Positions 41,794 to 48,742 of a stretch of DNA of 48,742 nucleotides are shown piece after piece (positions within the stretch are counted from its first letter, which is position 1; each line of letters starts with the position of its first letter). The position numbers and the translations under genes are program-made. Location: positions 1 through 48,742 of the forward strand of contig JAFVUZ010000179.1 of the NCBI GenBank assembly GCA_017502435.1, in the 5' to 3' direction. Source of the stretch: Lentisphaeria bacterium. Lineage in GTDB: Bacteria; Verrucomicrobiota; Lentisphaeria; Victivallales; Victivallaceae. The notes under the pieces are model-generated. The model saw nothing but the letters and a program-made list of their open reading frames with translations. It had not been told where the DNA came from and ran no database searches.

Positions 41794-42228
41794 TCAATCT
41801 GAATTTTTGTATAACATTGGAGTATGACCGGTCATTACTTCAAAGCCGAGAGATGCATAAAATTTTTCATTGCCGGGAGTTGCTATCAACTGAATCCAGT
41901 CAATTCCGAGTTTGAGTGCTTCATCCACGAGTTTTTTTACAATGGCTTTTCCGATGCCGAGCCCCTGAAATTCTTTCAGTACTGCGACATCCTGAATGCA
42001 GCCGTCTGAAACGCCGTCAGAAAGCAAACGCCCCATGCCGACCATTTCATCATTGACAAATGCCCCGGCAAAGAGCGTTGAATTCTGACATATTCTGCTC
42101 ATGGCTTCATGCGAAAAACTTTCGTCATACCAGTTGACAGAACGGTAAATACGCTCCAGCGATGATGCCGGAGCGTTTTTTATAATGCGGATCTGAAAAT
42201 CCGTTTTACTGCATGTTTTTGACGACAT
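41794..42228 (-). CDS. GNAT-family N-acetyltransferase
   Basis: The 144-residue product has the GNAT core: [42 protein letters not shown] with the acetyl-CoA loop QGLGIG, then [11 protein letters not shown]. The substrate is unknown. It is compact, with no extra domains. The start at 42228 lies inside the 3' end of icd (23-bp overlap in another frame) with no clear ribosome binding site, so translation is probably coupled to icd. A longer start at 42264 would add 12 residues of frame-shifted icd sequence. Confidence 0.85.
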
Positions 42229-43462
42229 TGCGGGCAAATTCCATACAGCCGACTTCGGTTGCACCTTCCATCAGGCGGGCAAAGTCATAGGTGACGACTT
42301 TGGAGCTGATGGCTTTTTCGATGGCGGAAATAACCAGATCTGCGGCTTCAGTGAAGCCGATGTGACGCAGAAGCATTTCTCCGGAAAGTGCCAGACTGCA
42401 GGGATTGACTTTGTCCATGCCTGCATATTTGGGTGCTGTACCGTGGGTGGCTTCAAAAAGTGCATGGCCGGTCATGTAATTGATATTTGCACCGGGAGCG
42501 ATACCGATACCGCCGACACAGGCTGCCAGTGCATCGGAAACATAATCGCCGTTGAGGTTCATTGTGGCAATGACATCATATTCTGCGGGACGGGTGAGAA
42601 TCTGCTGCAGAAATGCGTCGCAGATGCAATCCTTGATAAGGATTTTGCCTTCGGGAGCAACTCCGCCGCATTCGTCGTATGAAACGCATTTGTCGCCGTA
42701 TTCACGTTTTGCGAGTTCATAACCCCAGTTTTTGAAGCCGCCTTCGGTGAACTTCATAATGTTGCCTTTGTGAACGAGAGTGACGCTTTTGCGGTTGTTG
42801 GCGATAGCGTATTCGATAGCGGCACGGACGAGACGTTCACTGCCTTCCTGCGAAACAGGTTTGACACCGATTGAAGAAGTTTCGGGGAAGCGGATTTTTT
42901 TGACGCCCATCTCTTTTTGCAGAAATTCAATGACTTTCTGTGCTTCGGGAGTGCCTGACATCCATTCGATACCTGCATAAATATCTTCGGTATTTTCACG
43001 GAAAACTACCATGTCAGTTTTTTCGGGCTGCTTGACAGGTGAGGGGACGCCTTTGAAATATTTGACTGGACGCAGACAGACATACAAATCCAAAGTCTGA
43101 CGCAGTGCAACGTTGATTGAACGGATACCGCCGCCGATGGGAGTGGTCAGAGGTCCTTTGATCGCAACGAGGTATTCATTGATTGCATCGCAGGTTTCCT
43201 GCGGGAGCCAGGTGTTTTCGCCGTAAACTTTGTTGGCTTTTTCGCCTGCATAAAGTTCCATCCAGCTGATTTGTTTTTTGCCGTTGTAAGCAATCCGGAC
43301 AGCTTCGTTCCAGATAAGCATTGATGCTTTGGTAATGTCAGGACCGATTCCGTCACCTTCAATAAATCCGATGATAGGATTGTCAGGAACAATCAATTTG
43401 CCGTCTTTGCCCATAGTGATTTTTTCACCCGCAGGCACCGTAATATACTGGTACTTCGCCAT
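42206..43462 (-). CDS. icd: NADP-dependent isocitrate dehydrogenase
   Basis: The 418-residue product matches the bacterial dimeric enzyme in length and motifs: [32 protein letters not shown] (substrate-binding Ser/Arg region), [16 protein letters not shown], and [15 protein letters not shown], where Lys-Tyr is the usual NADP-selective pair. It oxidatively decarboxylates isocitrate in the TCA cycle. AAGGAG lies just before the start. The upstream 950 bp hold a MITE-like element, so the promoter may lie within or beyond that element. The GNAT gene overlaps its 3' end. Confidence 0.97.
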
Positions 43463-43490
43463 AAAAAACTCCTTTTGTTACAGCAGTGTA

Positions 43491-43776
43491 CTGAACGCTG
43501 ACTGATTTTTATTGCAAGGGGGCTGGCTGCGCCCCCCTGCACCCCCGCAGCCGGGTACGACCCGGTGCGATGTAACGCTGACGCGTGAGTGTCGGCGGCT
43601 GTGTGGTGCAAGCATTATTTCGGCGAAATGTTCGATTGCTCCTTCTTCTTTTTTGAAGGATGAGCAATCAAATCTTCCGCCGGACTTCGCCACATCAGGG
43701 GTATTGCCGTTCATTGCTGTTGCAATTCACTATCCCCCCGAACCCCCTCATTTTTTTATTATCAGTCAATGTTCAG
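43491..43776 (+). mobile_element. MITE-like element (286 bp) with terminal inverted repeats and flanking TA
   Basis: The ends are imperfect inverted repeats of about 34 bp: CTGAACGCTGACTGAT at the left (43491-43506) and, read on the minus strand from 43776, CTGAACATTGACTGAT, both continuing to a G5 run. TA dinucleotides flank both ends (43489-43490 and 43777-43778), as expected for IS630/Tc1-type insertion. Inside are a hairpin (43514-43540), the invariant CCGGGTACGACCCGG (43551-43565) and a large imperfect hairpin built on GATTGCTC/GAGCAATC (about 43640-43680). There is no coding sequence. It lies between icd and nagA, close to the icd start. Confidence 0.7.
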
Positions 43777-43907
43777 TATATAGCTTTTGTTTTTTGTAAA
43801 TTCTGAAAATAAGTGAGAGATACAAAGTTTTTATAATATAGCATGAAATATTTTTTTTTCCACAATGGTATTATCAAATAGTTGATAAATATATATAAAA
43901 TTTTTAA

Positions 43908-44162: not shown

Positions 44163-44369
44163 ACAGCTTTCTTTGTCCTACTTTCTTTCACTTGGAAAGA
44201 AAACATTGGAGTAAAATGCTTCAGTTGTTCTATAAACAAGGAAACAGCTTTCTTTGTCCTGCTTTCTTTCACTTGGAAAGAAAACATTGAAGTAGAATGC
44301 TTCAGTTGTTCTATAAATAAGGAAACAGCTTTCTTTGTCCTACTTTCTTTCACTTCGAAAGAAAGTAGG
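44163..44369. repeat. 81-bp tandem repeat, about 2.5 units, with internal hairpins
   Basis: Units start at 44163, 44244 and 44325 with ACAGCTTTCTTTGTCCT and differ by a few substitutions. Each contains CTTTCTTTC-ACTTG-GAAAGAAA; in the last, partial unit this has become a perfect 13-bp hairpin (CCTACTTTCTTTC, 44339-44351, with GAAAGAAAGTAGG, 44357-44369). The array ends directly at the nagA promoter. An in-frame 27-residue reading on the minus strand exists because 81 is a multiple of 3, but it lacks any sign of being a gene. Confidence 0.85.
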
Positions 44370-44397
44370 TTGAATTTTTTATCTTTTGTGTTATAGT
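44370..44397 (+). promoter_or_regulatory. Candidate promoter of nagA
   Basis: TTGAAT (44370-44375), a 16-bp spacer and TATAGT (44392-44397) lie 21 bp before the nagA start. It begins immediately after the tandem-repeat hairpin. Confidence 0.55.
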
Positions 44398-47448: not shown

Positions 47449-48645
47449 ATGGATTTTGAATTTGATAAAATAGAAGATGTTATTGCTGCTTTCCGCAATG
47501 GTGAAAAAGTAGTGGTAACTGATGATGAAAACCGTGAAAATGAGGGTGACGTTGTTGTTGCCGCTTCTTTTGCCACTCCGGAAGCAATCAATTTTATGGC
47601 CCAAAATGCCAGAGGTTTGATTTGTGTTCCGCTCGCAGAACCGATTGCTTCCAGACTCGGTTTGAAATCAAATGCATCCATGAGTGATCCTTACGGTACT
47701 GCTTTTACCCAGAGTGTTGATGCAAAAAACGGAACTACAACCGGAATTTCCGCTTTTGACCGTGCTCAAACAGTCAAAGAACTGCTTGACCCCGACAAAA
47801 CTTTGAATGATTTTATCACTCCGGGACATCTTTTTCCGCTCATTGCCAGACCCGGCGGCGTTCTCCGCCGTACCGGTCATACTGAAGCTGCAGTCGATCT
47901 TGCATCTCTTGCCGGCCTTGCTCCTGCCGGTGTGATTTGTGAAATTATGAATGAAGACGGCACAATGGCAAGAGTGCCGCAGCTTAATGAATTCCGCAAA
48001 AAACATAATCTCAAATGGTGTACCGTTGCAGACCTTATCGAATACCGCCGCCGTACAGAAAAACTTATTGAACGCGGTGCAACTGCCAATCTGCCTACCA
48101 AATACGGCGATTTCAAAATAACTGCTTACCGTTCAAAACTTGATAACAAAGAGCACGTTGCTCTCGTTTGCGGTGATGTCAATGGTAAGGAAAATGTAAT
48201 GGTTCGTGTTCACAGTGAATGCATGACCGGAGACGTTTTTGGTTCACTCCGCTGTGACTGCGGTCCGCAGCTGCATTCTGCCCTGCGTCAGATTTCTGAA
48301 AACGGTTGCGGTGTGCTGGTTTATCTCCGTCAGGAAGGCCGCGGAATCGGTATCTTCAACAAAATCGGAGCTTATAAACTTCAGGATAACGGATGCGATA
48401 CCGTTGATGCTAATGAAAAACTCGGATTCGCCGCCGACTTGCGGGATTACGGAATCGGGGCTCAAATCCTCAATGACCTCGGCGTTAAATCAATGCGTCT
48501 TTTGACCAATAACCCCCGCAAAATTATCGGTCTTGACGGTTTCGGACTCAAAGTAACAGAACGTGTCCCGCTGGTCATTGAACCTATCGACGAAAACGCT
48601 TTCTATCTTCAGACCAAAAAAGACCGCATGGGTCATTTGATTTGA
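47449..48645 (+). CDS. ribBA: Bifunctional 3,4-dihydroxy-2-butanone-4-phosphate synthase / GTP cyclohydrolase II
   Basis: The 398-residue fusion supplies both precursors of riboflavin. The RibB half has [10 protein letters not shown] (25-34), [10 protein letters not shown] and HTEAAVDLA. The RibA half has [22 protein letters not shown] (the three zinc cysteines) and [11 protein letters not shown] with TVDAN for GTP. Both active sites look complete. The start at 47449 follows AAAGGA; the frame extends upstream through the promoter. It appears monocistronic within the window, and the structured repeat begins 12 bp after its stop codon. Confidence 0.97.
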
Positions 48646-48656
48646 GCTGATTTGTA

Positions 48657-48742
48657 AACGCAGACTGATTTTTTATTACAAGGGGGCTTACGCCGCCCCC
48701 TTGTATCCCCGGCGCCGGGTACGACCCGGAGCGATGTGACGC
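48657..48742 (+). repeat. Structured dispersed repeat / MITE-like element, copy 3 (cut by window end)
   Basis: It starts with AACGCAGACTGATTTTTT, matching the left terminal repeat of the 43491-43776 element. A perfect 10-bp hairpin follows (ACAAGGGGGC, 48678-48687, with GCCCCCTTGT, 48695-48704, 7-nt loop), then the invariant CCGGGTACGACCCGG (48715-48729). The rest lies beyond the window. Confidence 0.75.

Follow-up and report, generated by a model that had tools for sequence, protein, structure and literature searches.

As a general rule, MITEs fold stably and occupy AT-rich intergenic regions (review: PMC10969869). Among short bacterial repeats, the pneumococcal RUP, BOX and SPRITE elements are biased towards sites between convergent genes, and this bias has been read as the mark of parasitic elements occupying regions under little constraint (PMC3049150). 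The relatives of the insertion sequence ISAba12, which shares its terminal repeats with a MITE, have GGCTTTGT ends and 9-bp duplications (PMC6382973). The element described here is very probably also a non-autonomous DNA transposon (MITE), with ends presumably recognised by a DDE transposase in trans, 8-bp target duplications and survival where insertion does little harm.

The window, the whole 48,742-nucleotide stretch analysed, is contig C181 of a Lentisphaeria MAG (2.86 Mb in 266 contigs, 87% complete), and where its relatives match entries in named collections, those entries are Lentisphaeria MAGs of ruminant-gut origin. Copies of the family, aligned with their flanks, have a 25-bp consensus end, GGCTSTGTACTAAACnnnGACTGAT. 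The arms of the window copy match at 20 of 25 positions, and no second start in the window has equally similar 25-base arms at the 304-bp spacing. A sequence-only reading had proposed an element with inverted termini at 43489-43778, flanked by TA; the element and its termini are real, with limits about 7 bp further out at each end (Table 1), while the TA sits inside the longer repeat (GGCTSTGTAC...). That reading saw no coding capacity, and we likewise found nothing gene-like in the element, only mechanical ORFs of 72-95 aa. Outside the repeats, TTTGTTAC and TTTGTTTT are identical at six of eight positions; the window copy is an older member of the family whose duplications have decayed. It is atypical in position, lying in a divergent region 19 bp upstream of the icd start codon. 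The left terminus does recur after ribBA, as had been noted, in the same orientation; this second copy has 94% identity over 107 bp with another copy in the same genome. The window also contains an 80-bp unit (TTTCTTTGTCCTACTTTCTTTCACTTGGAAAGAAAAC...) repeated in tandem about three times at 44165-44370, between the MITE and a nagA-like gene.

Table 1. Features of the MITE copies and their surroundings in the window.
Feature	Position	Strand	Basis or remark
MITE copy, 304 bp, non-coding	43482..43785	+	alignment with 14 other copies; matches in its own genome
Left terminal inverted repeat AGCAGTGTACTGAACGCTGACTGAT	43482..43506	+	25 bp
Right terminal inverted repeat (reverse complement AGCTATATACTGAACATTGACTGAT)	43761..43785	-	25 bp
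Left target-site duplication, decayed, TTTGTTAC	43474..43481	.	placed by its distance from the 25-bp repeat; family members as a rule have 8-bp duplications
Right target-site duplication, decayed, TTTGTTTT	43786..43793	.	8-bp duplications are the rule in the family
Hairpin 1 (TGCAAGGGGGC / GCCCCCCTGCA)	43513..43541	.	helix 2 of the covariation analysis
Hairpin 2 (CCGGGTACGACCCGG)	43551..43565	.	a different hairpin, GGGGATRTCCATCCCC, in its place in five other copies
Central hairpin	43621..43682	.	stem varies by compensatory change; helices 6 and 7 of the covariation analysis
Isocitrate dehydrogenase-like gene (icd), neighbour	42206..43462	-	named by sequence resemblance
Second copy, left part	48645..48742	+	final base of the ribBA stop codon is also the first base of the repeat; contig end cuts the copy

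The suggestion that the family is dispersed was borne out. In the genome that holds the window, 182 ends (94 + 88) lie within three mismatches of the end pattern and none match the reversed-pattern control, so the genome should carry roughly ninety or more copies; a whole-element search of it returned at least 40 strong places with full or partial copies. An exact 8-bp flanking duplication is present in 18 of the 31 full, non-redundant copies taken from six genomes (shuffled mean 0.77, maximum 4); none has a duplication of 9 bp or more, and exact 2-bp flank matches are not in excess (11 versus 8). Many further perfect 8-bp pairs were seen at loci examined later. The insertion targets are A+T-rich, and several copies are nested, inserted just inside the ends of others. 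In four copies in the window's genome (L007:1464, L011:1463, L019:1462 and L386:3662), the left terminus is not the usual one but GCTnTATnnCnAATATGGGGAnATA, and a normal right end lies about 313 bp away (once 403 bp). The same terminus stands alone at three more places in this genome and may represent either another type of end or a chimera.

Across the order, the strict 14-base end pattern is present in 10 of 137 genomes, and only six have at least 14 such ends (G000, 129; G011, 67; G066, 41; G001, 27; G051, 15; G072, 14). No MITE ends were found in G002, from the genus of the window's genome, or in G043, from the genus of G011. The window locus in G002 and the C227 locus in G001 both lack the element; relatives had been proposed as a source of empty sites, and such element-free loci exist, with flanks at both too diverged for sites exact to the base. 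An intergenic region shared by G000 (C69) and G001 (C51) holds a copy in both species, and the duplication is not common to the two sites. Neither inconsistent ends nor positions conserved in distant relatives, both named by the sequence-only reading as arguments against a mobile element, were observed. The interiors look unrelated between several genera and the ends are constant, which points to several MITE families with one common set of ends. A gltS-like sodium/glutamate symporter gene is followed downstream by a full copy in the window's genome (L009, C223) and by a solitary end in G001 (L110:6685-6709).

The copies are far from evenly placed among genes. According to a simple ORF heuristic applied to 33 full copies from several genomes, 21 (64%) lie between convergent genes, eight between tandem and four between divergent genes, with none called within a gene. 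The background, 15.5% of intergenic regions convergent, comes from 441 kb of the window's genome alone and the copies from several, and on these terms the binomial p is ~1e-9; in that genome by itself, 8 of 11 full copies are convergent. Single ends there face the 3' end of a gene in 54 of 75 cases (p 3e-5), a median of 42 bp past the stop. End-to-stop distances of -24, -13 and -2 recur, which suggests that a repeat landing at a gene's last codons supplies the stop codon. Half of a terminator-like hairpin adjoins the element in seven end flanks, against 0.24 expected.

The window element folds with a z of -8.8; in several genera, complete elements (about 250-365 bp) reach z values of -4.3 to -13 on both strands. 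Fifteen aligned copies give 77 pairs, 15 of them with changes on both sides. Under a structure derived from the same alignment that was used to test it, 96.6% of cells are paired, versus 35-46% in slid versions, and 67 cells carry double changes versus 22 in shuffles. The central hairpin stem, for example, occurs as ATTGCT/AGCAAT, TTTCGT/ACGAAA, CTTCAT/ATGAAG and CTTTGT/ACAAAG. The folded shape is kept in the family despite sequence change, and these compensatory changes may reflect either selection or quasi-palindrome repair. Classical hairpin-plus-T-tract terminators are not in excess over shuffles, and there is no Rfam match at the gathering threshold.

In the mechanism that we propose, a DDE transposase supplied in trans would presumably recognise the 25-bp ends, and the MITE would have inserted into A+T-rich 8-bp targets, duplicating them, and multiplied to roughly ninety or more copies. 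Copies would then survive mainly at low-harm sites, just past stops and between convergent genes, sometimes beside half of a terminator-like hairpin. The sequence-only reading was right to call the element a MITE, given its inverted repeats, target duplications, dispersal and a congener locus without the insertion, and went astray in assigning it to the IS630/Tc1 type with a TA duplication. A TA does adjoin the inner part of both repeats, yet it belongs to the longer conserved repeat (GTAC), and the 8-bp duplications, with no excess of exact 2-bp matches, rule out a TA duplication of the IS630 type. An IS630-type transposase, for which the same reading had proposed a search, is missing as well: the window's genome, 87% complete and the only one searched for it, has no DDE_3 (PF13358) match. 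We give an IS630/Tc1 origin almost no credence. A fixed, non-mobile intergenic RNA or repeat of the REP or riboswitch kind could account for the strong fold and the covariation, but not for 8-bp target duplications, nested insertions and absence from congeners; with no Rfam family matched either, this explanation is highly improbable.

A mobile element may instead carry a working interior: its hairpins, active on either strand, could be a bidirectional terminator or insulator between convergent genes, for instance, and be kept by selection. The compensated pairs, the good folding of both strands, the convergent bias and the adjoining half hairpins are what such a role would lead one to expect. 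The terminators themselves do not exceed shuffles, however, template-switching repair of quasi-palindromes would also match changes in both arms, and the covariation was scored on the alignment that supplied the structure. Moreover, a like convergent bias in pneumococcal BOX, RUP, SPRITE and IS has been read as that of parasites settling where the damage is smallest (PMC3049150). We regard a selected interior as unlikely. A broader version, in which one set of ends repeatedly captured unrelated hairpin-forming interiors in several genera, and selection kept these because they act on both strands, bidirectional terminators between convergent genes being one example, with the result that a selfish element renders its insertions harmless, is speculative and strikes us as doubtful.

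Returning to the non-autonomous transposon, a trans-acting transposase presumably moves the family, its action and any candidate class being inferred. The partner models run were DDE_3 (PF13358), IS6 (PF13610), IS1595 (PF12762) and ISL3. In the window's genome, neither PF13610 nor PF12762 has a match, and PF12762 has none in the high-copy carrier genomes. IS6 was rejected as partner, with no PF13610 transposase in eight carrier or near-carrier genomes searched, and so was IS1595: the six genomes of the order that have it include no high-copy carrier of MITE ends, and its own ends are mostly different. In G072, one MITE end has an ISL3 transposase 42 bp away, but all copies of this ISL3 element end at GAAGAGGC and it had merely inserted beside the MITE end; resident ISL3 elements of relatives end GCCTCTTCACC..., unlike the MITE. 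At L164 and L172 (G072 C10), an ISL3-family IS has inserted directly inside a MITE end. The ISL3 copies of the family end at ...CTGGTGAAGAGGC and occur at many contig ends, and an ISL3 fragment in G001 adjoins a tandem repeat of about six copies (L167:1737-2156), read as FYRIAFTAFRLPIQNV-like peptides, a possible repeat array. No autonomous copy was found near the roughly 150 ends inspected, and reading by eye through the ORFs inside solitary ends turned up nothing recognisable as a transposase. This absence is weak evidence because short-read assembly drops multicopy IS from MAGs. Viral contigs, plasmids and phages gave no match, and in the literature we found neither the end sequence nor anything relevant on MITEs of Lentisphaera or Victivallales.

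These observations correct a plausible but wrong IS630 assignment and name a high-copy repeat, bounded by GGCTSTGTACTAAAC... This repeat helps to break gut Lentisphaeria assemblies: for 30 of the 45 listed minus-strand ends, a contig start is no more than 300 bp away. With both compensated hairpins and a position bias, the family also allows a test of whether it is the element or its host that the folding of a MITE benefits.

Several insertion sequence groups (IS6, ISL3, IS1595 and IS903-type IS5 elements) have GG(C)TxT-type ends similar to those of the MITE. The IS6 family, with GGCTCTGTTGCAAA-type ends and an 8-bp duplication, agrees in the first 8 bases and in duplication length, but its ends diverge after GGCTCTGT. 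The ends of the IS1595 family element in G035, GGCTATGTCnGAnTTAAG, are similar to GGCTSTGTAC in their first 8 bases and have A-rich flanks, and one G035 element begins GGCTATGTC; the remainder of the ends is different. The ISAba12 relatives with GGCTTTGT ends are IS903-type IS5 elements. MITEAba12 is likewise a MITE with only its terminal repeats in common with an IS, here ISAba12, with related IS ends that begin GGCTTTGT and A+T-rich targets; it differs in having 9-bp duplications, a length of 113 bp, 78% A+T and a known parent IS, against 8 bp and about 300 bp in Lentisphaeria (PMC6382973). RUP, BOX and SPRITE are also short, high-copy, non-coding, enriched between convergent genes and prone to insert into one another, and RUP and BOX share inverted repeats, target duplications and tight folds with the Lentisphaeria family (PMC3049150). 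Their sequences and hosts are other ones, and RUP has IS630-type ends (PMC3049150), whereas the Lentisphaeria MITE combines GGCTSTGTAC ends and an 8-bp duplication with interiors that, unlike those of the three pneumococcal repeats, are about 50% G+C and hold several compensated hairpins.
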